Shown here piece by piece: positions 6,294 to 31,769 of a DNA stretch of 64,000 nt (position 1 is its first letter; each line of letters begins with the position of its first letter). This stretch comes from an uncultured beta proteobacterium (GTDB lineage Bacteria > Pseudomonadota > Gammaproteobacteria > Burkholderiales > Burkholderiaceae_C). The notes under the pieces are model-generated. The model worked only from the letters and a program-made list of their open reading frames with translations, did no database searches and was not told where the DNA came from. The stretch is from the NCBI GenBank assembly GCA_903838565.1, contig CAILZB010000060.1:62001-126000 (forward strand), in the 5' to 3' direction. Position numbers and translations under genes: made by a program.

Positions 6294-6310
6294 GTGACAC
6301 CCGGTGTCAC
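6294..6310. promoter_or_regulatory. 17-bp palindrome upstream of the permease gene
   Basis: GTGACACCCGGTGTCAC has perfect 8-bp arms around one central base. It lies 65 bp before the GTG start of the KdgT-like gene, in a 157-bp spacer. This size and symmetry suit an operator for a dimeric regulator. It does not resemble the two TTTTG/CAAAA palindromes, so a second regulator would be needed. The arms are too close for an RNA hairpin with a normal loop. Confidence 0.4.
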
Positions 6311-6375
6311 ACCTCCATTGACCCGCACGCTGGCGTGACGCGGTCGCAGACAACATTGAATCCAGGAGACATACA

Positions 6376-7365: not shown

Positions 7366-7366
7366 A

Positions 7367-7783: not shown

Positions 7784-7821
7784 CACGGGACGGGGCGCTG
7801 AGGTCGGCGCTTCCATCTTTC

Positions 7822-7844
7822 GCCTGCGCCGCTTGGGCGCAGGC
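7822..7844 (+). terminator. Stem-loop followed by T-rich tract
   Basis: GCCTGCGCC and GGCGCAGGC form a 9-bp GC-rich stem with a 5-base loop. A pyrimidine-rich tract (ATTTCTCTTTCTC) follows directly. It lies 38 bp past the stop of the GlcG-like gene and 28 bp before the reductase start, so it could be a full or partial intrinsic terminator dividing the cluster. The T-tract is interrupted by C, so termination may be incomplete. Confidence 0.5.
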
Positions 7845-7872
7845 ATTTCTCTTTCTCTCCAGGAATTTCACC

Positions 7873-8850: not shown

Positions 8851-8884
8851 GCTGCGGATATATTCATTAAACTTGGAGAAGACG

Positions 8885-9772: not shown

Positions 9773-9804
9773 ACTCCAACACGCCACCGTTTACCAGAAG
9801 ATCC

Positions 9805-11079: not shown

Positions 11080-11513
11080 GGAAAACCGTCAATCTCAAAT
11101 TCGTCCTGTCTTGACGATTTCCATAGGCACATCTGAATCACGGACCCGTCAATGTTCGAGCATGTGCATGGAGCGCAACCCATGGAGCGACCGCTCTATG
11201 CAACATCGACCGTGTTGAAAACGCTTCTGCTGCCCGAAAGCTGCCGCTCGCAAGCACCGGCTCTGGTCGCCTCAAGAAGCCAGCGGCGATCTGAAATTGA
11301 TTGCCAGATACCCGACGTTGGAATTGAGGTCGAATCGGCATGCTCCGAATCGGCCTGTCGTGACGATGAACTATGTTCCCGCTACCTTTTCCAGTCAGGA
11401 CCAGCGATTCGCGGCGCCGATCCGGAAAACCGAGGCCGACTCCCAGGCTGCGGATTCGTTTACGATGACCCGACGGACTCTTGAGCGGCGATAGCGGTTG
11501 AGAAGGCTTTACC
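11080..11513 (+). other. 434-bp gap without a recognisable gene
   Basis: The gap separates the glycerate kinase from the DAO-type flavoprotein. Short open frames on both strands (for example 11152-11484 plus and 11138-11563 minus) have no recognisable domain and no ribosome-binding site. The base composition is less GC-biased and less codon-structured than the neighbouring genes. It may hold a decayed intergenic repeat or gene remnant. I see no terminator with a T-tract and no clear promoter. Confidence 0.5.
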
Positions 11514-12737: not shown

Positions 12738-12961
12738 CCAGATACTTTTACCCGGAAAACCCGCGTATTCAACACACCTTCGAAACAGGGATTGGCGGGT
12801 ACCGGTCGCTCGCTGGCACCGACAGCATGCCCAAAGCCGACGCCCGTTTTCCGGCCAAGAACCAAGACTTCAGCGCGTCCGCCCGTGTCGATGCACAATT
12901 CTGATTTTCAGCGTCAGATTTCCCCGAACCATCACGTTGCCGAGATTGAATAGGAACGGCC

Positions 12962-13420
<459 letters not shown>

Positions 13421-13443
13421 ACCACCTACGCGAGGAAGTCACC

Positions 13444-15729
13444 ATGCATTTCGATGCTGCAACCCTGGATATGGCCAAAGGCCAAATGCCCAAAGGGCTT
13501 CTCGCCCTCGTGCAACGTGCGCAGGTCGCGTCCAAGGCCACGGCCAGCGACGGTCTGATACGGCGAAGTTTCCTGAAGATGGGCGTGGTCTCGGGGTTTG
13601 CACTGGGCGCCTATCCGCTGGTAGCCGCCGCGCAAGGAACGGTTTCCGACGCTGCCCCATCCGGGCTCAAGCCCTTTGAGCAGCCCGCTGCCTTTGTCCA
13701 CATCGAATCGGATGGCAGCGTCACTGTGACCATCAACCGGCTGGAGTTTGGACAGGGTGTGCTGACCGCTTTGCCCATGTGCCTGGCAGAGGAGTTGGAT
13801 GCCGACTGGAGCAAGGTGCGCGCGGAGCATGGCGATGCCGATCCGGCTTACGTGGATCCGGCCTATGGCATGCACATCACCGGCGGTTCGGGCTCCATCA
13901 AGCGCTCTTTCATGCAGTACCGTGAACTGGGGGCCAGGGCCCGCGCCATGCTGGTGGCTGCGGCCGCTTCGCGTTGGGGCGTTGACGTCAGCACCCTGCG
14001 CACAGCGAACGGCAGGGTTTTGGGCGCGGGTGGCCAGTCCATCGGATACGGGGAACTGGCTGACAGTGCCATGAAGATGCCGGTGCCGCAAACGGTGGCA
14101 CTGAAAGAAGCGAAGGACTTCCGCATCATCGGCAAGGCGACCCCGCGTTTGGATGGTCGGGACAAGTCCAGCGGCAAGCAGAACTTTGGCATCGATGTGC
14201 AATTGCCCGGCATGCTGACCGCAGTGGTGGCTCACCCAGCGGTGTTTGGTGCCAAGATCAAGTCGCTGGACGATACCGCTGCCAAAGCGGTCCCGGGCGT
14301 CAAGGCCGTGCTGCGCATGCCAACCGACCGGGGTGGTGAGGGGGTGGCTGTGATCGCCCTGGGCTATTGGGCTGCCAAGCAAGGTCGCGACCAGCTCAAA
14401 CTGGAGTGGGATACCTCTGGCGTCCAGAAGGTGGATAGCGCCGCCCAACTGGCCAGCTACCAGGCCCTGGCCAAGACGACCGGCTTTGTGAAGTTCAATG
14501 CTGATGTGGGGCCGCTGGCCAAAGCACCCAAGAAGATCAGCGCCGAGTTCACTTTCCCCTACCTGGCTCACGCGCCCATGGAACCGCTGAACTGCACCGT
14601 GCACCTCAGCGGCGACGGAGCAGACGCCAAGGCCGACCTCTATCTGGGCACCCAAATGCCAGGTTTGGACGGCATGGCGGCGGCCAAGGTGCTGGGTCTG
14701 GCTCCGCAACAGGTCAAGGTCCATGTGCAAATGGCGGGTGGCGGATTTGGCCGGCGCGCCGTGCCCACGGCCGATTACGTGGCGGAAGCCTGTACGGTTG
14801 CCAGGCTGGCCATGGCGGCTGGGGTGAACGCCCCCATTCGCGTGCTGTGGAGCCGCGAGGACGACATCAAAGGTGGCTACTACCGCCCCATGCACGTGCA
14901 CCGCGCCGACATTGGCTTTGATGCCAGTGGCAAGGTGCTGGCCTGGGACCATGTCATCGTGGGCCAGTCCATCGTCCAAGGCACGCCGTTTGAAGGCATG
15001 ATGATCAAGGACGGCATAGACGCCACCATCGTCGAAGGCATGCGCGATCCGTACGACGTGCCCATGCGCCTGTCGGTGCACCATCCCAGGGTCAATGTGC
15101 CGGTGCTGTGGTGGCGCAGCGTGGGCTCCACCCACACCGCCTATGTCATGGAAACCTTGGTCGATGAGATCGCCCGTGCCACCCACCAGGACCCGGTGGC
15201 CTACCGTCTGAAGCTCATGGGCGACAAGCACCCCCGCCACAAGGCGGCACTGATGCTTGCGGTGGAAAAGTCAGGCTATGGCAAACGCCAGCTGCCCAAG
15301 GGCCAGGCCTGGGGTGTTGCCGTACATGAATCGTTTGACACGGTGGTGGCCTACGTGGCAGAGGCCTCGGTCAACCATGGGTTGCCGAAGTTGCACGCGT
15401 TGACTGCCGCCGTGCACTGCAACCTGGCGGTCAATCCCAAGACCATTGAAGCCCAGGTGCAGGGCGCAGCGCTGATGGGTCTGGGCACCTGCCTGCCCGG
15501 TGCCGCCATCACGCTCAAGGACGGCCAGGTCGAGCAAAGCAATTTCTCCGACTATGTCGTTGCTCGCATTTCCGACATGCCCAAGATCGCGGTACACATC
15601 GTGCCCAGCGCAGAACCCCCCACCGGCATGGGAGAGCCTGGTCTGCCCCCGTTAGCGCCCGCCTTTGCCAATGCCATCGCCAGGTTGACCGGCAAAACGC
15701 CGCGCAGCCTGCCGTTCAAGCTGGCCTGA
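13444..15729 (+). CDS. Molybdopterin-binding large subunit of aldehyde oxidase/isoquinoline 1-oxidoreductase (beta type), Tat-exported
   Basis: This 761-residue protein of the xanthine dehydrogenase family hydroxylates a heterocycle or aldehyde at a Mo centre. A twin-arginine motif (IRRSFLKMG, Arg 40-41) followed by a hydrophobic stretch ending VAAAQ indicates Tat export of the folded complex with its small subunit. MAGGGFGRRAV and MGEPGLPPLAPAFANAI are family motifs; the Glu of GEPG matches the catalytic glutamate. FAD motifs are absent, as in IorB-type enzymes, which usually pass electrons to a cytochrome or quinone. It starts 23 bp after the small subunit. The true substrate is unknown; isoquinoline is only the family name. 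Confidence 0.88.
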   Translation: MHFDAATLDMAKGQMPKGLLALVQRAQVASKATASDGLIRRSFLKMGVVSGFALGAYPLVAAAQGTVSDAAPSGLKPFEQPAAFVHIESDGSVTVTINRLEFGQGVLTALPMCLAEELDADWSKVRAEHGDADPAYVDPAYGMHITGGSGSIKRSFMQYRELGARARAMLVAAAASRWGVDVSTLRTANGRVLGAGGQSIGYGELADSAMKMPVPQTVALKEAKDFRIIGKATPRLDGRDKSSGKQNFGIDVQLPGMLTAVVAHPAVFGAKIKSLDDTAAKAVPGVKAVLRMPTDRGGEGVAVIALGYWAAKQGRDQLKLEWDTSGVQKVDSAAQLASYQALAKTTGFVKFNADVGPLAKAPKKISAEFTFPYLAHAPMEPLNCTVHLSGDGADAKADLYLGTQMPGLDGMAAAKVLGLAPQQVKVHVQMAGGGFGRRAVPTADYVAEACTVARLAMAAGVNAPIRVLWSREDDIKGGYYRPMHVHRADIGFDASGKVLAWDHVIVGQSIVQGTPFEGMMIKDGIDATIVEGMRDPYDVPMRLSVHHPRVNVPVLWWRSVGSTHTAYVMETLVDEIARATHQDPVAYRLKLMGDKHPRHKAALMLAVEKSGYGKRQLPKGQAWGVAVHESFDTVVAYVAEASVNHGLPKLHALTAAVHCNLAVNPKTIEAQVQGAALMGLGTCLPGAAITLKDGQVEQSNFSDYVVARISDMPKIAVHIVPSAEPPTGMGEPGLPPLAPAFANAIARLTGKTPRSLPFKLA

Positions 15730-15743
15730 AGCGAGCCAGAGGC

Positions 15744-16769
15744 ATGGAAAGCCTGGACCTGCGGGTATTGGCCGATGCGCTGCAATGGCGTCTGGCGGGC
15801 CACGGAGTAACGCTGATGACCGTGGTGGAAACCTGGGGCAGTGCGCCCAGACCGCCCGGTGCGCTCTTGGCCTTGAGGGACGATGGCGTCGTCAGCGGTT
15901 CGGTCTCCGGTGGCTGTGTGGAAGACGATCTGATTGCCCAGACCAAGGCCGCGTCGCAAGCGCATGCAGTGGCTGCGTCCCGGGCGCCCGAACGACCATC
16001 CATGATGGCTTATGGCGTCAGCAAAGAAGAGGCCGCCCGCTTTGGATTGCCCTGTGGCGGAACGTTGCGCTTGGTTCGTGAACCTTTGCTCGATACCCAC
16101 TGGGTGCAGGAGCTACTGGAACGAACCACCCGCCACGAACTGGTGGCCCGTCAACTGACCTTGTCGAGCGGCGCGGTGAGCCTGCTTCCCGCGACGCGCG
16201 GCCAGAGCATGCACTTTGACGGCATCCTGCTAAGCACCGTGTTTGGCCCCAAGTGGCGCCTGTTGTTGATTGGCGCGGGTCAGTTGTCACAAGCCGTCGC
16301 GCAGATCGCGCTGATGCTGGACTTTGAGGTGCTGGTTTGCGATCCGCGCGAGGAATACGCGCCCATGATGAACCTGGCCGGTGTGAGTCGTGTCCTGGGC
16401 ATGCCAGATGATGTGGTGCGCGAGTTGGTGCCCGATGCGCACACCGCCATCGTGGCGCTGACCCACGACCCAAAGCTTGACGATATGGCCCTGATGGAGG
16501 CCTTGCGCACCAACGCGTTTTACGTCGGTGCGCTGGGCTCACGGCGCAACCAGGCTGCGCGCAAGCAGCGCCTGGCTGAGCACTTTGATCTATCCGCAGC
16601 AGAATTGGCGCGCCTGCACGGACCGGTAGGCTTGTTCATTGGCGCCAAAACACCGGCCGAGATTGCCGTGTCGGTGGTGGCCCAAATCATCCAGTTCAAA
16701 AATGCCAAGCTTGATTCACAAACCTTGATCGAGCCATCGCCGTGCGCGACGCCCCTGCCACAGTCCTGA
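15744..16769 (+). CDS. xdhC: XdhC family molybdenum enzyme maturation protein
   Basis: This 341-residue XdhC/CoxI protein has an N-terminal XdhC_CoxI domain (MTVVETWGSAPRPPGALLAL, SGGCVEDDL) and a C-terminal Rossmann domain (LLLIGAGQLSQAVAQIAL, YVGALGSRRN). The family binds and protects sulfurated molybdenum cofactor and inserts it into xanthine-dehydrogenase-type enzymes. It begins 14 bp after the large-subunit gene, so it serves that enzyme. Its 3' end overlaps the start of the broken nucleotidyltransferase by 28 bp, a normal translational-coupling arrangement in intact relatives. Confidence 0.88.
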   Translation: MESLDLRVLADALQWRLAGHGVTLMTVVETWGSAPRPPGALLALRDDGVVSGSVSGGCVEDDLIAQTKAASQAHAVAASRAPERPSMMAYGVSKEEAARFGLPCGGTLRLVREPLLDTHWVQELLERTTRHELVARQLTLSSGAVSLLPATRGQSMHFDGILLSTVFGPKWRLLLIGAGQLSQAVAQIALMLDFEVLVCDPREEYAPMMNLAGVSRVLGMPDDVVRELVPDAHTAIVALTHDPKLDDMALMEALRTNAFYVGALGSRRNQAARKQRLAEHFDLSAAELARLHGPVGLFIGAKTPAEIAVSVVAQIIQFKNAKLDSQTLIEPSPCATPLPQS

Positions 16770-19329: not shown

Positions 19330-20007
19330 TCACAGGCTGCGGCAAACCGTGTACTGGTTGTCGTCGCTGTAACTGGTGGCGGCCGTTCCTGGCGCGGTGT
19401 TGGCACCAGCCGTCGCCTGAGTTGCCAGCACGCTGCCACGGTCTGGCAGGCCGTCGTCAAACTGGGTGTCGATGGCGCGTGCTGCCTTGCCAGGCACCTG
19501 TGACAGGCAGACGGACAACGCGGCCGCGCCCGCCGCCGAAGTGACGCCCGGGCCAACGCCGATCAATCCGTTGAAGGCATTGCGTGGCAACGCAGCCACG
19601 CCGGTGTCCGCGGGGTTGCCCGCGATGAACCCGCCTGCCTTGAGCGCCTGCCAGAAAGCCAGCGCCTCGCCGCCCGCCGTGAACACCTGCGCCTGGGTGA
19701 CGCCAATCACGCCGTCGTTGTTGCCGGACTCGGTCACGCCGGCCCAGCTGCCGCCCCTGGACTGGAGCGAGGCCAGCGATCCTGCCGCTCCGCCGTCATC
19801 GCCCGGCAGGCTGTGGAAGCGATCGACATAGGCGTTGTATGCCACACCGAGGCTGTTGATGTCGTTCAGGCCGCTCTTGATCCTGGCACTGTCGATCAAT
19901 TCCTGCCCCTTGAGGACGCCACCGAGCAGCAAGCCGATGATGACCAGGACGATGGCGATCTCGACCAGCGTGAAGCCCGACGCGCGGGTCTGAAGCGGAT
20001 GTTTCAT
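19330..20007 (-). CDS. Type IV prepilin-like protein (PulG/MSHA-pilin type)
   Basis: This 225-residue prepilin has a short basic leader cut at G/FTLVE (MKHPLQTRASG then FTLVEIAIVLVIIGLLLGG), Glu5 present, and a C-terminal globular part with YVDRFHSLPGDDG near residue 65. Two Cys (one in SVCLSQ, one in YTVCRSL) could form the usual C-terminal disulfide loop. I chose ATG 20007 because AAAGGAAAACCT stands just upstream; the frame opens earlier. It is the last gene of the pilus operon, 112 bp after the previous prepilin, and is the best candidate for the major pilin because of its canonical processing site and good ribosome-binding site. Confidence 0.85.
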   Translation of the reverse strand: MKHPLQTRASGFTLVEIAIVLVIIGLLLGGVLKGQELIDSARIKSGLNDINSLGVAYNAYVDRFHSLPGDDGGAAGSLASLQSRGGSWAGVTESGNNDGVIGVTQAQVFTAGGEALAFWQALKAGGFIAGNPADTGVAALPRNAFNGLIGVGPGVTSAAGAAALSVCLSQVPGKAARAIDTQFDDGLPDRGSVLATQATAGANTAPGTAATSYSDDNQYTVCRSL

Positions 20008-20119
20008 AGGTTTTCCTTTCGTTGACACGTCGCTCAGTTGTCCCCTCTTTTTCGCGCTCTTACTGTCTTGAGCGACGGCGGCAGTAAATGCGGTTGGCGC
20101 GATGCGCTGATGCTGCTGG

Positions 20120-20842
20120 TCATGGCAGCGTGCCCGCCTGGAGCATCCGGTTGAACAGCGAGCCGGTGGGAAGCCAGCTCACGATGTCGTCGAATTCACC
20201 CATGGCAGACCCGGCAGCCGTGGGACTGCGGCTGACAAAATTGCCGTTTCCGTCGGTGTTGTCGATTTCGTCGGCGCTCGACGGATCCGCTCGCACCACG
20301 CCGCTCGAAGTGACCGCACCGAACCCGTTGACCCCATGGGAAAGGACCACAGCAGGAACCCCGCTGGCCAGCACGGAGGCGCACGACGCGCTGGAGCAAA
20401 CGCGCAGCGTGGCGACCGAGGAAAGGCTGAAACTGGCGGCCGGACTGCGGCTCGAAAAGATGCCGTTGACGCTGTAGCGGATGCGGTTGCCCCAGGCATC
20501 GGCACCTCCCACAGCCAGCGTGGCCCAGGGGAGATTGCCCTCCTGCGTGACGCAGTGGCCGGTCGCCGCAGTCACGTCCTCCAGCCCATCGTTGGCCGTT
20601 CCCGTCGCCGCGGCCACGGTCATGTCGGGACAGGGCAGATGCGGCGGCGTCTGGTTGGCAGCGTAGCCGAGCAGCGCTTCCCTGGCTTCGTCCAGGACCC
20701 TTTGCGTGTCCCGGATCCTTTGCTGCTCCATCTGGCTGCTCAACAGCGACAGACCGCGGCCGAAGATCAGGCCCAGGATGATCAGCGCCATGGCGATTTC
20801 TATCAGCGTAAAACCGCGGCCGTGAGCTGCTGCATGGGTCAT
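20120..20842 (-). CDS. Minor prepilin-like protein with AREALLGYA-LPCPD module
   Basis: This 240-residue protein has a prepilin leader and cleavage site (G/FTLIEIAMALIILGLIFG) with Glu5. After the helix comes EAREALLGYAANQ, LPCPD and NLPWATLAVGGADAWGNRIRYSVNG. The same order of motifs occurs in the N-terminal part of the 680-residue protein encoded immediately upstream in the operon, so the two share an ancestral module. It begins 13 bp after that gene. It is probably a minor pilin or pseudopilin at the fibre tip or base. The last third is rich in Ser, Ala and Asp with no recognised domain. Confidence 0.8.
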   Translation of the reverse strand: MTHAAAHGRGFTLIEIAMALIILGLIFGRGLSLLSSQMEQQRIRDTQRVLDEAREALLGYAANQTPPHLPCPDMTVAAATGTANDGLEDVTAATGHCVTQEGNLPWATLAVGGADAWGNRIRYSVNGIFSSRSPAASFSLSSVATLRVCSSASCASVLASGVPAVVLSHGVNGFGAVTSSGVVRADPSSADEIDNTDGNGNFVSRSPTAAGSAMGEFDDIVSWLPTGSLFNRMLQAGTLP

Positions 20843-20855: not shown

Positions 20856-22898
20856 TCATTCGGTGCGCAACACGAAATGGCTCAGGGCAACGCCCTGGCG
20901 GTGGCTGCCCGAAAGAAAGCCTGCGGTGAAGCCGTAGTACACCCGGTTCAGCGCCGCGTCCGGGGCGACGCAGCGTTGCATCGAGGGCGTCTGGGCGAGC
21001 CGCTCCAGGTCGACGGCAACGTCGCTGCAGTCGGTGCAATCGACCCAGGCCATGACGCGAAGGAAGTCGTTGGGCGCCACGTGCGCAGCCGGATCGCACA
21101 GGCTGCAGCCGGCATCGCAGCCCGAGACAATCTCCACGCGCTGCCGGTGCGTGGCCGGTGGCGACTCCTCGAACCGGTTCGAAGGCACATGGCGACAACC
21201 CGCGGCGCTGCCGTCGCAAGCCAGACTCATGCTGTCTCCGGTTTGAGCGTGGTCAATGCGGCCATTGAGCAGGATCGCACTGTGGTTCTCGAGCGGGTCC
21301 AGGCCGGTAGAGGCGTCGCGATGCACGTCGGTTTCGACGACGATGGAATGCGCACCCCAGGGGTCAGCCGAGTCCAGCACACCCATCATCGCTTCGCTGC
21401 CGCAGTGGCCGGGCGCGGCTCCGACGTCGGCGCTGACCAGTTGCAGCGTGAAGCCCTTGCCCCGGTCCACACCACTGCCCGACAAGGCAAAGGCGTCGGC
21501 CAGGGAGAACCTGAACTCGTAGTAGGCGCGCAGCGTCCTGCCCGCCAATGGAACAACACTGGGCGACCAGATGCAGGCACCCCCCGAACCTGCGGCATCC
21601 GCCAGGCCCACTGAAGCGCTTGCGGTATCCGCCGTGGCGCCAGCGCCGACGGGATGGAAGCTCGCAAGATTCTTGTCAAACGACTCCTGCATGGCCCCGG
21701 CGCCCAAGCCCTTGACGCAGCGCACGAGGTCGGCGCTGGCCTGGGCCGGATTGAAATACCCTGCTCCCGCATAGGCGCCGCTGGCCGGGAAGATCGTGTT
21801 CACACCCTCCAGATACATCGCTGGGTCGCCGAACAGCGCCAGGCTTCCGGTTCGTGCCGGCGTGTCGCGCAGCTGTGCGCCCAGCGGCGCCAGGCTGCGC
21901 TGCGTGCGCTCGCCTGCGAACAGCAGCACACCGACACAGCCGCCAAGACCGTTGACCGTCGGCGCGAGTGCGGGCCGTGCATAGAGAAGGTTGTTCTTCC
22001 AGTGCTTGAGGACATTGGCTTTGGCCGCGGTAGTCGGCGCACAGGCGGCGACAGCGTTGTCCACCCCCTTGTTGCCGGCCGATGCCGTCAAGGCCGGATC
22101 GCCCGTCGGCAGGCTGTTCAGGCAGAACTCCAGGTCGCCCAACAGCTTGTCGATGTCAGCCTTGAAGTCGCTGCGCTTCTTGACGCGGTCGAACACCTCC
22201 TTGGCCGTGATCCAGGTGCCTTGATCATTGTTGAGCGCGGCTTGCCCGCTGGCCCCGGTGCCGAGCACCAGGGTGCTGACAGCGCCAGCGCCGGCAAGCA
22301 CCGTGCTGCCCTCAAGGTAATTGGCTGCGACCAGGTTGCCGCCGCATTCGGTGCTCGTGCCGGCGCCGAGCCGGGCTTGCCCCGGCAGTGCCGCTAGCGG
22401 CGCAAGCACAACGGCCCAGGCCCGGTCGTGCGACGTCGGCCCCGTCAACGCCGCTCCTGCAGCGTCCTGCAGCGCGAACTGGCCTGCCGTGTCCCAGTTC
22501 ACTGGGCTCGCTTTCGGGTTGTCCTTGAGCGCACCGGAGACCGCGTACCAGAGGCACTCGCCGGCACCGTCGCGCAGTGGCGCGAGCGCCATCGACTGGG
22601 TTCTCCAGGGCAGGCGCGCCAGCACCGACACCTGGCTCGCAGCGCAGGGCGGGTTGGCCACGCCGTCGTTGTTGCTGTCGGGGCAGGGCAGGTACCCAAA
22701 GACCTCGTCGGCGTTCACCAGGTAGCGGTAGCCCGACGCAAAACCGATCAGCGCCTCCCTGGCCTGACCCAGGGCCGCCGAGGTGATGCGGTCGCGCTCG
22801 GTTTGAATTCCGCCGGAGGTTCTGAGCGCAAGGAAGGCCGCCACCAGCCCCAGCAGCAGCAGCACCAGCAACAGCGCCGAACCCGATGCGCGCTTCAT
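20856..22898 (-). CDS. PilX/MshP-type pilus protein with C-terminal L-type-lectin-like domain
   Basis: This 680-residue protein has one N-terminal membrane helix (SALLLVLLLLGLVAAFLALR, about 7-26) of the PilX/MshP kind, lacking the G/FTLxE site. A module EALIGFASGY, GYLPCPDSNNDG, WYAVSG spans about 48-122. Residues about 415-680 look like a legume/L-type lectin sandwich: YYEFRFS, IVVETDVHRD (about 519-528), ENHSAILLNG and the closing VYYGFTAGF with SHFVLRTE. At least nine Cys in this domain suggest disulfides. In MSHA systems MshP and MshQ are separate, MshQ bearing a LamG-like domain; here the two roles appear fused. It overlaps the PilO/P gene by 4 bp. The likely role is adhesive tip; sugar binding is inference. 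Confidence 0.75.
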   Translation of the reverse strand: MKRASGSALLLVLLLLGLVAAFLALRTSGGIQTERDRITSAALGQAREALIGFASGYRYLVNADEVFGYLPCPDSNNDGVANPPCAASQVSVLARLPWRTQSMALAPLRDGAGECLWYAVSGALKDNPKASPVNWDTAGQFALQDAAGAALTGPTSHDRAWAVVLAPLAALPGQARLGAGTSTECGGNLVAANYLEGSTVLAGAGAVSTLVLGTGASGQAALNNDQGTWITAKEVFDRVKKRSDFKADIDKLLGDLEFCLNSLPTGDPALTASAGNKGVDNAVAACAPTTAAKANVLKHWKNNLLYARPALAPTVNGLGGCVGVLLFAGERTQRSLAPLGAQLRDTPARTGSLALFGDPAMYLEGVNTIFPASGAYAGAGYFNPAQASADLVRCVKGLGAGAMQESFDKNLASFHPVGAGATADTASASVGLADAAGSGGACIWSPSVVPLAGRTLRAYYEFRFSLADAFALSGSGVDRGKGFTLQLVSADVGAAPGHCGSEAMMGVLDSADPWGAHSIVVETDVHRDASTGLDPLENHSAILLNGRIDHAQTGDSMSLACDGSAAGCRHVPSNRFEESPPATHRQRVEIVSGCDAGCSLCDPAAHVAPNDFLRVMAWVDCTDCSDVAVDLERLAQTPSMQRCVAPDAALNRVYYGFTAGFLSGSHRQGVALSHFVLRTE

Positions 22899-23860
22899 TT
22901 CGCGCCCTGCCTGATCAAGGCGCCGGGAGCCACGAGGTCGGTGCGCACGCCGGTGGCCAGATCCAGCGTTTCACCCACGCGCAAGTGCCGCCCGTCAAGC
23001 ACGATGGCATCCGCCGAAATGCGGGTCGGTGCGCCCGGCGCCGCCGGTTGGTGCTCGGCCACGGCGCGGTGATTGATCCAGGCCGTACCGTGACCGCGAT
23101 CACGTTGCACGATGCCGTCCAGGCGCGCTGGCCGACGGGCGTCCTGGCCGCCCGCATCGCTGCGCTCCAGGACCATGGCGCTGCGTTCGGCAGGCGCATA
23201 GAACAAGGTGTCCAGGCCGGGCCACGATGCCTCAGGGGACGACGACACTGGCGCGTCCGCCTTCATCGGCACGGCCAGAGGAACGGTCGGCACCAGCGTG
23301 AAAAACCGCAGCACGCACCGTGCCGACAAGCCCAGGGGGGTCGGCTCCGACAACTGGCATGCGTCGACGCGAAATGGCCCGGTCGGGCGGCGCTCGAGAT
23401 CGCGCAGCAGACCGAGCAGATCCTCCTCGTGCACCGGGCTCAAAGTCAGTTCGAGATCGTGAAATTGGGCGTCGTGACCCGCAGCGGCCGGCGTCGCCGG
23501 TGGCGCCAACGGCTGGGGTGCGAGCAACGTGTAGCGCAGCGACGACGACAGGCCCGTTCGCCTGGCACTGGCCAGGAGTTGCTCCACCCAGGCTTCGCGC
23601 TCGGGCATGGCGATGAAACCGATCTGAACCAGCTGCCAGTAGAGTTCCGACTGGCGCTCGACGTCGCTCAACTCGGCCTGCCTGTCCCGTGCGCGCGCCT
23701 GCACCGCTGCCAACTCGCCAGCGGCACTGAGCAGCTCGCGCTGGGCGCGCGTCTGCCACTGCTGAGCGCACAGCACCAGGCCCAGGCCCAGCGCCAGCGC
23801 GGCGCCCAACGCGATCAGGCCCCGGCGTGCGTGGACAGCGATGGACTGCCAAGCCTTCAT
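22895..23860 (-). CDS. PilO/PilP-like (MshJ/MshK-like) inner-membrane fusion protein
   Basis: This 321-residue protein has one membrane helix (about 12-31), a periplasmic coiled coil (about 33-70) and a PilO/GspM-like ferredoxin fold, seen as FHDLELTLSPVHEEDLLGLLRDLER (20-residue core only weakly conserved). The C-terminal quarter (about 235-321: LDGIVQRDRGHG, AWINHRAV, ILV-type turn, LRVGETLDLATG) resembles PilP/MshK/GspC homology regions that contact the secretin. In MSHA and PilMNOPQ systems these are two proteins. The gene overlaps both neighbours by 4 bp. It would link the inner-membrane alignment complex to the secretin. Confidence 0.65.
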   Translation of the reverse strand: MKAWQSIAVHARRGLIALGAALALGLGLVLCAQQWQTRAQRELLSAAGELAAVQARARDRQAELSDVERQSELYWQLVQIGFIAMPEREAWVEQLLASARRTGLSSSLRYTLLAPQPLAPPATPAAAGHDAQFHDLELTLSPVHEEDLLGLLRDLERRPTGPFRVDACQLSEPTPLGLSARCVLRFFTLVPTVPLAVPMKADAPVSSSPEASWPGLDTLFYAPAERSAMVLERSDAGGQDARRPARLDGIVQRDRGHGTAWINHRAVAEHQPAAPGAPTRISADAIVLDGRHLRVGETLDLATGVRTDLVAPGALIRQGAK

Positions 23861-25329
23861 CGCCGCAGCACCTCGGTTCGGGGTCTTGGCGCCAACGCGT
23901 CAGGGTCGGCGTCGCGAGTGCGCGCCAGCGCCAGGCACCAGTGCAGGGCTTCCCGCCCTCCCTCGCTGCTCAAGGCTTGCCGGGCGCGCTCTCGCTGCGG
24001 GTCGAGCAGCAGTTTGCTCCCCGGCAACTGGCTGAGTTTGCGGGAAATTTCTGCCACGATCTGACTGCGCGCCAGAGGCGTGGAGTCGCCCTCCAGCCCC
24101 AGTTCCAGCTTGAGCTCGACTGCCCGCGGTTCCGCGTTCACCCCGGCAGGGCGCGCTGCGCCGCCGGGCAAGGCCGCAGCGCCAGCGCAGGCGGCTTCGC
24201 CCGTGGGCAGATGACGCCACTCGAATCTGCGGGCGCGCAGTGACTCAGCGGAACCGACGACCTGGGCGACGCGCAGCATGGCCTGCGCCATCGACGCATC
24301 CCCGGCCAGTTCCCGTTGGTACACGCTCACGGCTTGGCGCAGCGCCTGCGGCGGCACACCCGCATGCTTGAGCGCCTGCTCGGTTTTCGTCAGTCCGGCC
24401 TGAACCTGCCGGACCTGGGCCAGCACTTGGGCGCGCTCCTCTTGAGCCGCCCAGGCCGCTCGCGCCTGATGGTCCGCGGCCCAGACCGCCAGGCCCAGGC
24501 ACAAGGCCGTCGCAGCCCAGCAGATGCGGCCCAGGCGCTGCCCCAGAAAGGCGCCGCGCTGCTGCAACGGAGCCAATTGGCCAACGGGTGACTGCAGGGC
24601 CAGATCGAACAGGACACCTTGCCAGTCCGGCGCCGCCACGTCGCTCCATGGCGCTGGCGGCGCCAGCAGGTCCAGGCCAAGCGCTGCGAGGTCGGGACCC
24701 AGATCGACCGATTCCCCCAGAAACAGCACGGCGTAGCGTTGCCCAGAACGCGCGATGACACGGGTGTTTTCCAGATGTCGCAGCGTGCGCGCCAGCTCCT
24801 GCGCCTGTTCGCTGGCCTGATCGGTCAGTGGCGCAAGGCGCGTCAGCACCGGCACGCGGTCCTTGAGGAAGACAATGCGCAGCTTGCCCCTGCCGGGCAT
24901 GACCACAAACAGTGCGGGCGGCAGTTGGGGATGACGCCCCAGCAACGCCATCAACATCGACTGAGTCCACAGCCCCGCCAGCGCGCCGCGCTGCGAATCG
25001 ACGGCAGACTGAATGCGCTCGGCCGCGTCCACGCCCACCAGCAGTTGCTGCGACGGCAGCACACGCTCCATGAAGCCGGCGCCGGCCAGCCCTGCAACGG
25101 CCGCGCGAAACGGCGTGGAGGGGAAGCGGTTGGCAAGTTGCCTCTGGATGTAGTCGCTTCGATCCCGTCCAAAGAGGCGGGGAACCCGAATCGGCGCAAA
25201 GTCTTCTTCGGCCAGGTCGGTGACGGCCCAGACCGGCCCGGTGGCGGGGCCGGTCAGCATCTGCCAGCCGCTCTTGCCCTTTTGCCAGCCTTGCGTGGCC
25301 GTCGTGCTGATGTGCAGAACGGTTTTCAT
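23857..25329 (-). CDS. PilM/PilN-like (GspL/MshI-like) assembly protein
   Basis: This 490-residue protein has a cytoplasmic N-terminal half of about 265 residues, one membrane helix (WAATALCLGLAVWAA, about 271-285), then a coiled coil and periplasmic domain ending with a GspL/PilN-type fold (VELKLELGLEG, ending in sorting of residues SQIVAEISRKLSQLPG). The layout equals MshI or GspL, that is, PilM and PilN in one chain. Sequence motifs for ATP binding of actin-like PilM are not clear, so I infer the family from order, topology and position between the platform and PilO-like genes. It begins 6 bp after the platform gene and overlaps the next by 4 bp. Confidence 0.6.
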   Translation of the reverse strand: MKTVLHISTTATQGWQKGKSGWQMLTGPATGPVWAVTDLAEEDFAPIRVPRLFGRDRSDYIQRQLANRFPSTPFRAAVAGLAGAGFMERVLPSQQLLVGVDAAERIQSAVDSQRGALAGLWTQSMLMALLGRHPQLPPALFVVMPGRGKLRIVFLKDRVPVLTRLAPLTDQASEQAQELARTLRHLENTRVIARSGQRYAVLFLGESVDLGPDLAALGLDLLAPPAPWSDVAAPDWQGVLFDLALQSPVGQLAPLQQRGAFLGQRLGRICWAATALCLGLAVWAADHQARAAWAAQEERAQVLAQVRQVQAGLTKTEQALKHAGVPPQALRQAVSVYQRELAGDASMAQAMLRVAQVVGSAESLRARRFEWRHLPTGEAACAGAAALPGGAARPAGVNAEPRAVELKLELGLEGDSTPLARSQIVAEISRKLSQLPGSKLLLDPQRERARQALSSEGGREALHWCLALARTRDADPDALAPRPRTEVLRR

Positions 25330-25335: not shown

Positions 25336-26535
25336 TCAGAGCTTGATGTGGGCGACAGTGTCGTAGATCGGCCCGAGCACGGCGAGCATGATCCAGGCCA
25401 GCAGCAAGCCCATGACGACCGTGAGCACGGGCTCGATCAGGGCCTGGACCTTGCCCACCGACTCGTCGATGTCGCGGGTATAGAAGTAGCTGATGTTTCC
25501 CGGTGCTTGGTCCAGCTCGCCGGTGGACTCTCCCACCTTGAGCATGCGGATCACCATCGGCGGAAACAGCCCTTCGGCGCCGAAGCTCTCCGACAGCGTG
25601 CTGCCATTGAGCACGCGCTCGCGGGCCTGGCGGATGGCCTGCTGAACGACCAGGTTGCGCGAGACCTTTTGGCAGTGATCCAGGCTGTCGGCCAGTGCAA
25701 CGCCCGTGCGATGCATCAGTGCCAGGGTGTCGGCAAAGCGGGCCAGCGCCATCTTCTTGAGGATGGGACCGACCCAGGGAAGCGACAGCTCGATCTGATG
25801 CAGACGGTAGCGCACGCCCTCAAACGCTGCGGCCAGCGCGCCCGCGACCGCGATCCCCGACGCCACCACCAGCAGCAGCGCCCAGCCGTAGTTGGCGAAC
25901 AGATCAGACAGGCCCATCAGCAAGCGCGTCTGAAGCGGCAACTGCTGTCCCATCTGGTTGAGAAATCCCACCAGCTGCGGCACCAGATAGACCATCAGGA
26001 AAACGATCACGGCTGCGATGACAGTGAGCACGAAGCTGGGGTAGATCAGCACCCGCTGGGTCTGCGCCGCGAGCTCGTCCTGCCACTTGAGCGAGCGCAC
26101 GATGCCGTCGAGCACCTCGCCCAGCTGGCCAGAAACTTCACCGGCCCGAATCAGCTGCACCTGCGTCTGGGGAAAGACATGCACATAGCCCGACATGGCT
26201 TCGCCCAGCGTGGCGCCGCTTCGGACCTTCTCGTGCAATCCACCGGACAGCTCCCGACCCGCGTCCGTTCCGGACGATGCGCGCAACTCCTCCAGCGCCG
26301 ACAGGACGGGAACGCCGGCGCGCAACAGCATTTCAAGCTGAAACAGGAAGTCGATGAGTTGGCGCCGCGGCAGGCGTTTGCAGCCGCGCCCATGCCGCTG
26401 CGCGGCCCGCGCCCGCAGCAGCACCAGCCCCATGCGCTGCAGCTGTGTTTGCAGATCCAGCTCGTGCAGTGCCTCGGCCTGTCCCTGGTGCACCTGACCT
26501 TGCAGGTTGGCGGCGCGGTAGCGGTACAGCATCAT
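25336..26535 (-). CDS. Type II secretion/type IV pilus inner-membrane platform protein (GspF/PilC/MshG)
   Basis: This 399-residue protein has two tandem T2SSF domains (about 60-180 and 265-390) and three membrane helices (about 162-190, 214-238, 368-388). Family motifs include LLRAGVPVLSALEEL, VREVSGQLGEVLD-like GEVSGQLGEVLDGI, ALMHRTGVALADSLD and KVGESTGELD. It anchors the assembly ATPase and extracts pilins from the membrane. The start overlaps the ATPase stop by 4 bp. The second GE motif is followed by a Gln-Ala-Pro-Gly stretch instead of the more usual LxxM series, a small deviation. Confidence 0.92.
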   Translation of the reverse strand: MMLYRYRAANLQGQVHQGQAEALHELDLQTQLQRMGLVLLRARAAQRHGRGCKRLPRRQLIDFLFQLEMLLRAGVPVLSALEELRASSGTDAGRELSGGLHEKVRSGATLGEAMSGYVHVFPQTQVQLIRAGEVSGQLGEVLDGIVRSLKWQDELAAQTQRVLIYPSFVLTVIAAVIVFLMVYLVPQLVGFLNQMGQQLPLQTRLLMGLSDLFANYGWALLLVVASGIAVAGALAAAFEGVRYRLHQIELSLPWVGPILKKMALARFADTLALMHRTGVALADSLDHCQKVSRNLVVQQAIRQARERVLNGSTLSESFGAEGLFPPMVIRMLKVGESTGELDQAPGNISYFYTRDIDESVGKVQALIEPVLTVVMGLLLAWIMLAVLGPIYDTVAHIKL

Positions 26536-28238
26536 CCGGTCCTCGACGTGAGATCGATCACGCGCGCAACCTCTTCCACTGTGGTGTGGCCCTGGCGCAC
26601 ACGGCGCAGTCCGTCGTCGGCCATGGTGTCAAAGCCGCGTTCGCGCACGAGTTCGTTCAGCACCTTGAGGCTGGCACGCTGCGCCATCAACTCGTCGAGC
26701 TCGGCGTCGAACTTGAGCAACTCGACAATCGCCAGGCGCCCCTGATAGCCCTGGAAATCGCAGGATGGACACCCCACCGGCCGGAAAATGGGGCCCGTTG
26801 CGCCCTCGCCCAGATCGAGCAGTCGGGCCTGGAGCGCACTGGGCGCGTGCGGCGCTTTGCACTTCGGGCACAGGCGGCGCACCAGGCGCTGACCCATGAT
26901 GCCGATGACGTTGCCTGCTGCCACCCCGGGCGCGATGCCCAGGTCGAACAGGCGCGGTATGGCGCGCAGCGCCGAGTTGGTGTGCAGCGTGGAGAACACC
27001 TGATGGCCCGTCATCGCGGCACGAAACGCCATGTCCGCCGTTTCGCGGTCGCGGATCTCGCCCACCAGGATGATGTCCGGATCCTGGCGCAGCATGGAGC
27101 GCACGCCCTGCGCAAAATCCATCTTGACGGCATCGGACAGCGACGTCTGGCGCACGCAGGGCAGAGGATATTCGACCGGATCCTCCAGCGTCATGATGTT
27201 GACCTGTTCCTGGTTCAGATGGGCCAGGATCGAATAAAGGGTGGTGGTCTTGCCCGAGCCCGTGGGACCGGTGACCAGCAGAATGCCCTCGGGGCGCGAC
27301 AGCATCAACTGCATCGACGCCAGTTGCTGCGAGGACAGCCCCAGGCTGTCCAGCGCCAGAACCCGGCGCTTTCGATCCAGGACGCGCAAAACGAAGTTTT
27401 CGCCGTGCAGCGTGGGCTGGATCGCGGCGCGAAAATCCACCGGCCGCCCGGATATCGTGAGCGTGATGCGACCGTCCTGGGGCGCGCGCGTTTCGGCAAT
27501 GTTCATGCCGGCCATGACCTTGAGCCGCACCACCATGGCGGGCCAATAGCGCGAGTGCAGCGCCCGAACCTGGCGCAGCACGCCGTCCAGGCGGTAGCGG
27601 ATGCGCAGGAACTGCGCCTCGGGTTCGAAATGCAGGTCGGAGGCACCGCGCAGCGTCGCGTCTGCCAGCAGGGAGTCCATCAGCCGCACCACCGGGTGGC
27701 TGTAGCCCTCGTTCGCCTGGGCCAGACTGGCGATGTCCAGCGTGCCCGTTTCCAGCTCGCGCAGGATGCCGTCGATCGAGAGCTCGTGACCATAGAACAC
27801 TTCGATCGCGTTCAGGATCTCCGCGCTTGCGGCCAGGGCCCAGCGCGGTCGCGGTCCGCCTGCCAACAAGGCGCTGATCTGGTCGGCGGCGACGATGTCG
27901 TTCGGATCTGCGCTGGCGAGCACCAGTTCGCCGTTCTCCAGGCTGACGGGAAAGACGCGATGACGCTTGGCCAGCGCCTTGGGTATCAGCGCCAGGGCGC
28001 CGGTGTCGGCGACGATGCCGTGCAGACTGATCGCTTCCTGCCCCAGGGTATGCGCGAGGGCGGCGCGCATCGTGGCCTCGGTCATGAACCCCAGCGAGAG
28101 CAGCGTCTCTCCCAGCGGTTTGTGGCTGCGCTCCTGCTCCTGCAATGCGATGCGCAACTGGTCCGGGCCGATGCGCTTCATGGCCACGAGCTGCTCACCG
28201 AGGTGCCGATGCGGCGTGGCCGGGCGCGAAACGTTCAC
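26532..28238 (-). CDS. Pilus/secretion assembly ATPase (GspE/PilB/MshE)
   Basis: This 568-residue ATPase has an N-terminal MshEN/GspE-N domain (about 10-150; PLGETLLSLGFMTE) and a C-terminal hexameric motor. Walker A is GPTGSGKT (324-331), the Asp box LEDPVEYP (351-358), Walker B ILVGEIRDRETAD (about 390-402) and the His box around TGHQVFSTLHT. A four-Cys zinc motif is intact (Cys 457, 460, 490, 493). It powers pilin polymerisation. The MshEN domain of relatives binds cyclic di-GMP; whether this one does cannot be decided by eye. No PilT-type retraction ATPase is encoded in the operon. Confidence 0.93.
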   Translation of the reverse strand: MNVSRPATPHRHLGEQLVAMKRIGPDQLRIALQEQERSHKPLGETLLSLGFMTEATMRAALAHTLGQEAISLHGIVADTGALALIPKALAKRHRVFPVSLENGELVLASADPNDIVAADQISALLAGGPRPRWALAASAEILNAIEVFYGHELSIDGILRELETGTLDIASLAQANEGYSHPVVRLMDSLLADATLRGASDLHFEPEAQFLRIRYRLDGVLRQVRALHSRYWPAMVVRLKVMAGMNIAETRAPQDGRITLTISGRPVDFRAAIQPTLHGENFVLRVLDRKRRVLALDSLGLSSQQLASMQLMLSRPEGILLVTGPTGSGKTTTLYSILAHLNQEQVNIMTLEDPVEYPLPCVRQTSLSDAVKMDFAQGVRSMLRQDPDIILVGEIRDRETADMAFRAAMTGHQVFSTLHTNSALRAIPRLFDLGIAPGVAAGNVIGIMGQRLVRRLCPKCKAPHAPSALQARLLDLGEGATGPIFRPVGCPSCDFQGYQGRLAIVELLKFDAELDELMAQRASLKVLNELVRERGFDTMADDGLRRVRQGHTTVEEVARVIDLTSRTG

Positions 28239-29314
28239 GGCGCGCCCTCCCCGGCCTGGCGCAGTTGTTCCAGGCGCTGCTGCGCTGCGGTGCGCGAAAA
28301 CCCGTGCATGCCTTCAGTTTCCACTTCCGCCTGCGCCAGCGCGCGTCGGTAGTGGATTTGCGCCTGGTCATATCGGTGCAGGCGATCCAGCGCCACGGCC
28401 AGGTTGTAGCTGTGGTTTGCATGGTTTGGCTCGAGTTCCTGCGCAAGGGCATAGGCGAGCGCCGCCTCGGCGAGCCGTTCCTGCCGGACCAGAAGGCTCC
28501 CCAGCGCGCTCTGGGCGGCGGCCGATTCGGGATGCCGGTCGACCCATTCCCGAGCCCGACTCGCCGTCAGCGCCAGATCGAGTTCGCGGCTCAGCAGCAG
28601 GCAGGCGGCGCCGGCTGCGGCATGGCTGGGATCCTGGCGCAGCACGCTGCGGTAGTAATTCAGCGCTTCCTGCGGCCGATCGGTGGCGTGGGCGATGTAG
28701 GCCAGTCCCAGCAGCGCGTCGCGCTCGCCATCATTGGCCTTGAGCACTTTCTTGTACAGGCTCTCGGCCTCGGCCCAGCGCCCGAGCTTGAGGGCCGCGT
28801 AGGCGGAGGCAAGCGTTTCCTGCGCGCTGTTGGAGATCACAAATTCCGGTCCCGAGTTGAGCGCGGCAGCGCTCATGGGCGCGAGGCCGGGAAGGCGAGC
28901 GGGGATTTTCTGAACGGGCCTTGGCCCCGGCGCAGGAGCCTTCATGCCCGGTTCGCGGGCCGACGGCTTGGGCGCGTCCGCTGCGCTGGCATGAGAAGCC
29001 GACGAGAACGGCGCCGCCGTGGCCGCAAGCGCCGCCGGCGCAGCAGCGGTCGGGACAGGCGTTACGGCACGGCTCAGGCCCGGCAGTTGCGCCGCCAGAA
29101 AACCCAAGCCTGCGGCGAGCACGGCCACGAGCGCCAACGCGCGGCGTGGCGTATGCCGTGCGCTCGCGCTGTTGGCCATGCGGGCCCCGGGCTCCCAGGC
29201 TGTGGTCGCCGCGTCAGCTTCATGGGACTGCGCTGTCAGCTCCAAGGCCGGCCCACCCAAGGCCGTCTGTCCGTCCCCGCGGCCCGTAGCGTGTGCATCC
29301 CGCGGCAGGCTCAT
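28235..29314 (-). CDS. TPR-containing membrane protein (MshN-like)
   Basis: This 359-residue protein has one membrane helix (ALALVAVLAAGLGFLAAQ, about 59-76), a Pro/Ala-rich linker, and tetratricopeptide repeats from about 180 to 345 (for example AEAESLYKKVLKANDGERDA, PQEALNYYRSVLRQDPSHAA, DQAQIHYRRALAQAE). In MSHA loci MshN holds this position between secretin and ATPase and probably aids secretin assembly. I chose ATG 29314, one base after the secretin TGA; the open frame continues upstream but would overlap the secretin gene. The 3' end overlaps the ATPase start by 4 bp. Confidence 0.8.
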   Translation of the reverse strand: MSLPRDAHATGRGDGQTALGGPALELTAQSHEADAATTAWEPGARMANSASARHTPRRALALVAVLAAGLGFLAAQLPGLSRAVTPVPTAAAPAALAATAAPFSSASHASAADAPKPSAREPGMKAPAPGPRPVQKIPARLPGLAPMSAAALNSGPEFVISNSAQETLASAYAALKLGRWAEAESLYKKVLKANDGERDALLGLAYIAHATDRPQEALNYYRSVLRQDPSHAAAGAACLLLSRELDLALTASRAREWVDRHPESAAAQSALGSLLVRQERLAEAALAYALAQELEPNHANHSYNLAVALDRLHRYDQAQIHYRRALAQAEVETEGMHGFSRTAAQQRLEQLRQAGEGAP

Positions 29315-29315
29315 C

Positions 29316-31277
29316 TCAGTCTCGCAACGTGGCCGGTCGCGCCGACTCCGGCCTGACTTCAAGCCCGCGTCGCGCGTCGGGCAGGACGGCGCGAAATTCC
29401 CGGAAATCGCCCGACAGGCTGGCGTCGCGCAGCACCGTGGGGCGCAGGAAGATGACCAGCTCCGATTTGCGGCTGCTGTCGTTGCGGAACTTGAACAGGT
29501 CGCCGAACACGGGCAGGCGGTTCAGCCCCGGCACCTCGTCGGAGCCGTCATTGCGCGTGTCCTGCATCAGACCGCCCAGCACGGCAATGTCGCCCGACTG
29601 AACCCGCAGCACGGACTCCATTTCGCGTGTCTGCACTTCCGGAATGCGGTTCACGATGTTGTACTGCGCCAGCGCCGGGTTCGGGTCGGTGGCGTAGCCC
29701 GTGATGCGACTGATGGTGGGCCGCAAGTTCAGCGTGACCTCGTTCGATTCGCTCACCTGCGGCACCACCGTCATCAGGAAGCCGATGGGTACGGTGTTGA
29801 TCGTCGTGTTGTAGGTCGGTGTCGTGGTGAGTGCGCCGTTCGAGTAGGTTGCAGGCGTGACGCTGAGCGTGAAATACACCTTGTTGTCCACCACCTTGAG
29901 TACGCTGTTCTGGTTGTTGAGCACCGAAATCTTGGGGCTCGACAGCACGCGCAGCGTGCCGAAGGATTCCAGCAGGCTGAGCACGGCCGAAAGATCGGTG
30001 TTGCCACCCAGCAGGCCGACATTCTTCAGCGTCAGCGTAGCGAGCGAACTCACCAGACCGCCGGTCTGCAGGCCGGTGCTCGGCCCGCCAGGAGCCAGAT
30101 CGATGCGCGAGCCGGCTCGGGAGCCGGCAGTCTGCACCAACGCCCAGTTGATTCCCTGCTGATAGCTGCTGGACAGGTCGACCTCGACGATGGTGGCCTC
30201 GATCAGCACCTGACGCCGGGCCGAACTCAGGACGCGGTCCAGAAATTCGCGCACCCTCTCATGCTGGCTTTGCGACGCCCGAACGCTGATATTGCCGGTC
30301 TCGGGGTTGGCGATGACGTAGGCGGCCTCGCGCACGGTGCTGCGCTTGACCACGGTGGAGGCGCCGCTGGCCAGCACCGCCGGTCGGGCGCTGGCTGCGA
30401 GCACTGCGGCCGGGGTCGCGGCAGTGCGCGCTGCGGCCCTGCGCGTAGCAGACCCGACGGCCCCGCTGACGGCCACGCCCGTGGTGGACTGCACGCCCGA
30501 TTGCTCGGTGAGGGTCTCGCTCGTACCGTCCGGCAGGATCTTGTCGGTTTCCCGCAGCAGGTCCTTGAGATTGGCGATCAGTGTGTCCCAAAACCGGTTG
30601 TTGGACAGGTTCTCGATGGACGAAGTCGAGCCGTTGCTGGCGTTCGCCGCGCCCGCCAGGTTGCCGGGCGCGCCACCGGTGCTGGCCACGTCGGTCGAGG
30701 TGCTGATGCTGGTCTTGGCGTCGCGCCTGAGGTTGGGATAGTCGACCCGGTAATGCGCCAGGTAGGGCGAATCGACCAGGATCGACAGGCTGTTGCCCTT
30801 GATCTCGTAGCGCAGGTCCACCTGGCGCGCAACGCGGTCCAGAATCTCGGTTAGCGTCTGGTCACGCACGTTCATCGTCACCATCCCCACGATGCTGGGG
30901 TGAATGTCCACGTTCAACTTGGCATCGCGCGCGAGCGCGAACAGCAGTTCCTGCACTTCGACGTTTTGCATCACGACGCTGTACAGCTCCTGGCGCGGTT
31001 TGGGCTGGGGCGGCGGCGGCAGAGGTGAGACTTCGGAAAATGCTGGCGCGGCATCAATGACATGAGGAGCGGGATTCAAGTGCATGCTGGCGGCCGGCAA
31101 CGGCGGGCTGGAACATCCGGCAACAGACAACGCCAAACCGGCAGTCCAGGCCATGGTCAGCAAGGGGGTGACCCACCCGGGAGAATGTGCATCCGCAGAA
31201 CTCAAAGCCCTGGCCCCTGTGGAAGTTGTTCCGATATCCTGATGGCAAATGCTATTCCTTTTTGCAGTTAATGTCAT
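29316..31277 (-). CDS. Secretin lipoprotein (PilQ/MshL/GspD family)
   Basis: This protein is up to 653 residues. A lipobox (LSVAGCSS) follows a hydrophobic stretch, so it is an outer-membrane lipoprotein like MshL. A STN/secretin N domain follows (VQELLFALARDAKLNVDIHP), then a low-complexity Ala/Thr-rich linker, an N1-type domain, and the secretin beta-barrel (VLSSPKISVLNNQNSVLKV, then VPGLNRLPVFGDLFK). It forms the pilus channel. The start is uncertain: ATG 31277 lacks a ribosome-binding site, while AAAAAGGAATAG lies about 25 bp inside the frame, so translation may begin at a rarer codon nearer the lipobox. It heads the nine-gene operon and is divergent from yajC. Confidence 0.85.
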   Translation of the reverse strand: MTLTAKRNSICHQDIGTTSTGARALSSADAHSPGWVTPLLTMAWTAGLALSVAGCSSPPLPAASMHLNPAPHVIDAAPAFSEVSPLPPPPQPKPRQELYSVVMQNVEVQELLFALARDAKLNVDIHPSIVGMVTMNVRDQTLTEILDRVARQVDLRYEIKGNSLSILVDSPYLAHYRVDYPNLRRDAKTSISTSTDVASTGGAPGNLAGAANASNGSTSSIENLSNNRFWDTLIANLKDLLRETDKILPDGTSETLTEQSGVQSTTGVAVSGAVGSATRRAAARTAATPAAVLAASARPAVLASGASTVVKRSTVREAAYVIANPETGNISVRASQSQHERVREFLDRVLSSARRQVLIEATIVEVDLSSSYQQGINWALVQTAGSRAGSRIDLAPGGPSTGLQTGGLVSSLATLTLKNVGLLGGNTDLSAVLSLLESFGTLRVLSSPKISVLNNQNSVLKVVDNKVYFTLSVTPATYSNGALTTTPTYNTTINTVPIGFLMTVVPQVSESNEVTLNLRPTISRITGYATDPNPALAQYNIVNRIPEVQTREMESVLRVQSGDIAVLGGLMQDTRNDGSDEVPGLNRLPVFGDLFKFRNDSSRKSELVIFLRPTVLRDASLSGDFREFRAVLPDARRGLEVRPESARPATLRD

Positions 31278-31433
31278 TATTTTGACAATAAAACAAACTT
31301 TTTTGTGATCGGCAGGCGGCCTGACATGCGTCGCGACGACGCCTGTCGGGCCGAATACAATGCCGGGTTGAACATCCGGAGCCATGCCCTGCGTCGCGGG
31401 GTCGTGAGACCGGTTCTTTTTGTGGAGTTGCCC

Positions 31434-31769
31434 GTGCTGATTTCTTCTGCTTACGCCCAAACCGCCCCTGCCGCTGCTGCTGGCGGGACCGACATCCAGT
31501 CCTCGCTCATGGGAATGCTGCCGCTGGTGCTGATGTTCGTGGTGCTGTACTTTGTGATGATCCGGCCCCAGATGAAGAAGCAAAAGGAACAGCGCAGCAT
31601 GATCGACGCGCTGGCCAAGGGCGACGAGGTGGTCACGGCCGGTGGCTTGATCGGCAAGCTGACCAAGCTGGGTGACAGCTACGTGGGCGTGGAATTGGCC
31701 GCTGGCGTCGAAGTGCAGATGCAGCGCACGGCGGTGGTGCAGGTATTGCCCAAGGGCACGATCAAGTAA
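31434..31769 (+). CDS. yajC: Preprotein translocase subunit YajC
   Basis: This 111-residue protein has one membrane helix (LPLVLMFVVLYFVMI) followed by RPQMKKQKEQ, the YajC hallmark, and a small cytoplasmic domain (KGDEVVTAGGLIGKL). It associates with SecDF. I chose GTG 31434 because GGAG sits 7 bp upstream and it gives the conserved short N-terminus (MLISSAYAQ). secD follows 8 bp later. In many relatives queA and tgt precede yajC; here the divergent pilus operon takes that place. Confidence 0.93.
   Translation: MLISSAYAQTAPAAAAGGTDIQSSLMGMLPLVLMFVVLYFVMIRPQMKKQKEQRSMIDALAKGDEVVTAGGLIGKLTKLGDSYVGVELAAGVEVQMQRTAVVQVLPKGTIK

Follow-up and report, generated by a model that had tools for sequence, protein, structure and literature searches.

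A modular pilin-like protein with a C-terminal L-type lectin-like domain encoded in a betaproteobacterial MSHA-like pilus operon

Modular pilins and the operon of X

A pilin with a bulky lectin module fits the concept of modular pilins (PMC8179133). The closest described system is PilC of S. sanguinis, which combines a pilin module with Ig-like and concanavalin A (ConA)-like lectin modules and whose glycan ligands are sialylated and sulfated; this binding has been demonstrated, and a tip complex has been proposed (PMC9934059). In GspK the extra domain is an α-domain inserted into the pilin module (PMC8179133), and in the minor pilins CofB and TcpB of type IVb pili the pilin domain is combined with C-terminal β modules (PMC7248040, PMC8179133). 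Here we describe X, a 680-aa modular pilin-like protein encoded by a minus-strand ORF (22898–20856) of the window (the whole 64,000-nucleotide stretch of DNA that was analyzed) from a betaproteobacterium of the freshwater type. X is made up of three modules, a pilin module (residues 1–240), an extra module (240–395) and a C-terminal L-type lectin-like sandwich (400–680), and thus follows the order of PilC, that is, pilin module, intermediate module and C-terminal ConA-like lectin. PilC, however, belongs to a Gram-positive type IV pilus and retains Glu5. Its description goes no further than a ConA-like lectin/glucanase (SSF49899), while the metal-ligand motif of X is that of the L type, ExD...D...H. 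X resembles CofB and TcpB in joining a pilin domain to C-terminal modules, but it belongs to a different pilus class and has a different C-terminal fold, that of CofB being H-type-lectin-like. Like GspK, PilX and MshP, X has a hydrophobic helix that lacks Glu5, and like GspK it would be an oversized tip subunit; unlike those of GspK, its extra modules are appended at the C-terminus, and the last one has a lectin fold. We found no report of an L-type lectin associated with a minor pilin or MSHA in the literature searched, which leaves its absence elsewhere unproven. With X, the range of modular pilins, known from PilC and others, comes to include Gram-negative MSHA-like pili and an L-type (legume) lectin module; Pfam and NCBIfam contain no model that flags this protein. 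With a probability that we put at roughly 0.6, X is a modular pilin of an MSHA-like pilus that serves as a tip or capping subunit and bears a glycan-binding lectin cassette.

Nine tightly packed minus-strand genes form an MSHA-like type IV pilus operon, and the X gene is the seventh of them. Its ATG overlaps the stop codon of the upstream gene (ATGA) and only 13 bases separate its own stop codon from the start of the next gene, so that X lies inside a tight operon. Conserved homologues of the open frame (20856..22898) occupy the same place in their operons, and the frame contains all of the lectin motifs quoted in the preliminary description. As a single-sequence query, X matched nothing in Pfam, NCBIfam or the PDB sequences. 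The operon comprises, all on the minus strand, an MshL-like secretin (29316..31583; Pfam Secretin, and TIGR02519 MshL at 247.4 bits, about 3 bits under the cutoff of 250.2), an MshN-like TPR protein (28235..29362; Pfam TPR), an MshE-type assembly ATPase (26532..28238; Pfam T2SSE and MshEN, with the MshE-related c-di-GMP motif scoring over its cutoff) and an MshG/GspF platform protein (25336..26535; Pfam T2SSF, E = 1e-46). These are followed by a 490-aa inner-membrane protein (23857..25329), PilM/N-like by position and with no strong family match in Pfam or NCBIfam, and by a 321-aa inner-membrane protein (22895..23860), PilO/MshJ-like by position and architecture and with no match in either collection. 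Downstream of X lie a 240-aa prepilin that has Glu5 (GFTLIE; 20120..20842; Pfam N_methyl, E = 4e-4; NCBIfam IV_pilin_GFxxxE above cutoff) and a 232-aa MshA-like prepilin (19330..20028; N_methyl above cutoff; IV_pilin_GFxxxE), the probable major pilin. One operon thus holds an MSHA-type set of MshL secretin, MshE ATPase with its c-di-GMP motif, MshG and prepilins.

The N-terminal hydrophobic helix (G6^SALLL, no Glu5) and the pilin module of X (residues 1–240; 22179..22898, minus strand) are paralogous to the adjacent 240-aa prepilin, with which they align by hhalign at a probability of 92.9 (E = 3.8e-7, 159 columns). In the AlphaFold2 (AF2) model of X, an initial helix of about 50 residues (6–55) is followed by strands, and residues 4–230 give a weak structural match to the pilins TcpA (Z = 3.8) and FimA (Z = 2.9). 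Pfam N_methyl did not match X, and a Foldseek search with residues 1–395 alone returned no significant PDB match, so that residues 1–240 are assigned as a pilin module from the sequence profile and the gene neighborhood. The N-terminal pilin-type anchor described earlier was borne out by both the helix and the homology to the neighboring prepilin; helix and module together would place X in the filament. A Glu residue at mature position 5 is absent from X and from all relatives aligned there (alignment A8). Gly6-Ser7 is a plausible prepilin peptidase cleavage site, at which X would be processed.

The middle module (residues 241–395; 21714..22178, minus strand) ends in the boundary motif D-[ILV]-x-R-C-[ILV], at which lectin-less homologues stop. 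It is a second well-folded module in the model, for which no relative was identified. The preliminary description had spoken of a repeated pilus-associated module, a claim that is weakly backed: residues 60–240 and 240–395 reached only 65% in hhalign, and the idea that the pilin module is truly duplicated within X gained no support beyond this value.

The C-terminal domain: fold, metal site and sugar contacts

The full-length AF2 model of X, built from 40 sequences, had a mean pLDDT of 88.2 and a pTM of 0.84. In a Foldseek search the model matched legume lectins best, soybean agglutinin among them (E = 1.5e-9). The best structural neighbor according to VIA-align was the legume-lectin domain 7elv of M. 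jannaschii (Z = 21.8, rmsd 2.6, 204 residues), followed by many plant lectins with Z about 20 over residues 400–680 (20859..21701, minus strand). Comparison of the predicted structure with lectin folds thus returned an L-type sandwich, and the order of the lectin motifs, which are conserved in homologues, goes beyond chance. The lectin-like part had been placed from about residue 415; it is present but starts slightly earlier, at about 400. The lectin module of X itself goes undetected by all Pfam and NCBIfam models. The window-type lectins nevertheless align with a canonical branch of homologues by hhalign (99.6%, E = 1.2e-24), and one member of that branch (L123) matches Pfam Lectin_legB (PF00139) at 32.6 bits, over a cutoff of 26.3; its alignment with peanut lectin runs through EFDTYSNSEYNDPPTDHVGI. 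It is therefore well supported that residues 400–680 of X, as modeled, fold like a plant (legume) lectin.

Because LamG and L-type lectins share a jelly-roll sandwich and MSHA-type operons elsewhere carry MshQ, we considered whether the domain could be a LamG-type or other ConA-like module, that is, an MshQ variant. X does resemble MshQ (DUF6701) in being a large MSHA-operon protein within a pilin cluster that is presumed to be adhesive. Yet all 50 structural neighbors listed were L-type lectins, X has the ExD...DP...NH metal motif, and it lacks DUF6701, while MshQ has its own gene in a second operon of the same genome. An MshQ variant is thus disfavored and, in our estimate, highly improbable.

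Like the legume/L-type lectins (PF00139; the archaeal 7elv; peanut and soybean agglutinins), X combines the fold of residues 400–680 with the metal-ligand set. The motif E522-T-D524-V-H-R-D528-ASTGL-D534-PLEN-H539 (21282..21335, minus strand) reproduces the order and nearly the spacing of EFDTYSNSEYNDPPTDH of peanut lectin, whose metal-ligand roles we take to be matched by E522, D524, D528, D534 and H539 of X. Across 45 homologues (24 of the window type and 21 of the other branch) E522, D524 and H539 were invariant, and position 534 was either Asp or Glu. The span from E to H is usually 17 residues in the window-type subfamily, as it is in peanut lectin, and 18 in X. The Ca/Mn-binding residues that the preliminary description had suggested looking for are thus present and conserved, and a putative Ca/Mn ligand set in legume-lectin order and spacing is well supported by this comparison; the site is presumably occupied by metal. 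It would shape the binding loops of the L-type lectin-like sandwich.

The sugar contacts are a different matter. At the loop-A position, which is Asp in classical legume lectins, X has Lys481 (codon 21456..21458, minus strand; opposite the D of DGIIFFIAP in the alignment with peanut lectin), and the window-type subfamily has Asn in 20 of 24 members, Lys in two and Tyr in two. The loop-C Asn, which is essential for sugar binding in peanut lectin (PMC4598763), is replaced by Asp528 in X and by Asp in 18 of the 24. The classical contacts are therefore not kept, and the sugar pocket foreseen in the preliminary description is absent in its classical form, both defining side chains being replaced. 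For this reason X is filed as L-type-lectin-like rather than as a proven lectin, and glycan-binding activity cannot be read off its sequence. X further differs from the legume lectins in its fusion to a pilin and in its extra Cys clusters (561/568, 594–601, 621/624, 643).

The loss of the loop-A Asp and the loop-C Asn from X and most of its close relatives is also what would be expected from the main rival to a glycan-binding head, namely a structural, protein-binding or capping element that has kept fold and metal site and lost sugar binding, as in the storage and defense lectin-related proteins of legumes. Against this, the metal ligands are invariant, and it is these ligands that give the sugar loops of legume lectins their shape; moreover, in the other branch the loop-C position is mostly Asn (14 of 21). 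We regard a non-sugar head as unlikely but worth keeping in view.

Residues from 394 onward contain 11 Cys, out of 18 in all of X; the earlier count of at least nine was thus right as a minimum. A CxxxCxxC plus CxxC cluster (Cys 594, 598, 601, 621 and 624; within 20859–21737) is specific to the window-type lectin subfamily and may form disulfides or a further metal site. A relation to thioredoxin near the Cys-rich loop was discarded, as the matches of profile A2 were weak (E = 0.4 or worse) and judged to be due to chance; a search with profile A7 gave no such matches.

Presence and absence of the lectin-like module

X was found in all five genomes of its genus and, among the 301 genomes sampled from the family, in 10; matches to the lectin profile occurred in 8 of 399 genomes at the order level, 3 of 369 at the class level and 2 of 398 at the phylum level, each of these counts including the genome that contains the window. 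Scanning contigs with X alone as query detected no relatives, whereas an alignment query did find them, and a profile scan of GTDB genomes yielded 312. The best 80 of these, whose loci were inspected, were nearly all betaproteobacterial (Rhodoferax, Rhodocyclaceae, Sterolibacteriaceae, Gallionellaceae, Azospira, Thauera, Azoarcus). A relative of the 240-aa prepilin was present in 76 of the 80 loci, mostly directly after X (in a few of them the match falls inside X itself, owing to the common pilin module); MshG was present in 72 and MshE in 67, both upstream of X, these counts being lower bounds because flanks were short in several loci. The PilO/MshJ-like protein lay upstream in 60 and the PilM/N-like protein occupied the same place in 37. 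Among the side findings, a homologue with 51% identity from a MAG labeled Desulfobulbaceae (L051) was nested among the betaproteobacteria and likely represents a mis-binned contig or a recent transfer.

About a third of the relatives have no lectin and end at residue ~395, with the D-[ILV]-x-R-C-[ILV] motif, where a clean junction separates versions with and without the domain. One lectin-less relative belongs to the same genus (L024/L074), and there the next gene starts at once. In distant relatives at the class level the middle module is missing and the pilin module is joined straight to the lectin. When residues 1–395 were placed on a tree (77 rows, of which 51 have the lectin and 26 lack it), the label "no lectin" required seven changes, at least six of them being forced by well-supported branches; the count is approximate, since a few of the lectin-less labels, such as that of L077, may be truncated lectins. 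The lectin would thus be a cassette that has repeatedly come and gone behind one fixed junction (~395), and each gain or loss would retune what the pilus sticks to. That many lineages live without the module is compatible with a merely structural head, but gain and loss as frequent as this would be unexpected for a purely structural cap.

The domain also varies in size. A Rhodoferax homologue of 954 aa (L023/L052) has two tandem repeats of ~130 residues in a loop of the lectin domain (residues ~653–905). Long forms of about 980–1260 aa (L082–L127; Rhodocyclales, Sulfuritalea) have long insertions between E-x-D and D-P...H of the metal loop and carry extra sequence as well.

Together these genomes offer a natural series at a fixed operon position (with lectin, without lectin, with lectin plus extra domains, and with one lectin-less copy within a genus), so that the determinants of adhesion specificity in these pili are directly testable in strains that are culturable and harmless. 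Lectin-bearing homologues occur, for example, in the culturable environmental strains Rhodocyclus gracilis DSM 110 (L073) and Azospira oryzae DSM 21223 (L079). More tentatively, and with somewhat less than even odds, a swappable L-type lectin cassette, missed in most of its members by current family models, may be the adhesive head of one entire lineage of MSHA-like pili in betaproteobacteria. Its reworked loops, with Asn or Lys in loop A, Asp in loop C and clustered Cys, would represent a new mode of glycan binding for the legume-lectin fold.

Position in the pilus and other adhesin candidates

X would most likely cap the filament or sit at its tip, a placement also put forward for GspK and for PilABC of S. 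sanguinis. A capping position is suggested because X lacks Glu5 and carries two bulky C-terminal modules, by the reasoning applied to GspK. The argument from Glu5 does not transfer one-to-one to S. sanguinis, where Glu5 is retained by the modular lectin pilin and is missing from another, small pilin. The same features (no Glu5, large size, GspK-like helix), together with the conservation of a short lectin-less version at the same place in many genomes, could also point to a GspK-like initiator of pilus assembly, whose C-terminal modules would mainly block entry below the tip while other subunits adhere. Such a role, which we consider improbable as a full account, leaves unexplained a conserved lectin fold with its metal site and the extra inserted domains of some relatives; it is moreover compatible with a glycan-binding head rather than exclusive of it. 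As a glycan-binding head, which is the reading that we favor, the lectin-like sandwich would be presented at the tip and would bind an extracellular glycan, for example a cell-surface or matrix polysaccharide, through non-classical contacts, and X would thereby mediate adhesion. Such binding would depend on metal and differ in specificity from that of the classical lectins. The dedicated glycan-binding tip of the preliminary description thus keeps its pilin anchor, its L-type lectin fold, its metal-ligand set and a setting in an MSHA-like operon, but its classical sugar site is replaced.

The same genome contains a second MSHA-like operon (L133, G000:C7:35000-54000; positions 2299–15744), which encodes a PilB/MshE-type ATPase with the c-di-GMP motif, GspF, several prepilins, a GspK/PilX-like pilin and a 1253-aa MshQ/DUF6701 protein. 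On another contig (L129–L131, G000:C11), three PilY1-type matches in open frames of 2100–2980 aa lie within about 22 kb. With MshQ in the second operon and three PilY1 matches, the genome holds several candidate pilus adhesins, X among them. The second pilus operon also includes a 735-aa TPR protein (L133:7570-9774) whose C-terminus matches UDP-glucose:protein N-glucosyltransferase at 31.7 bits, far below the cutoff; this resemblance hints at a possible involvement in pilin glycosylation.
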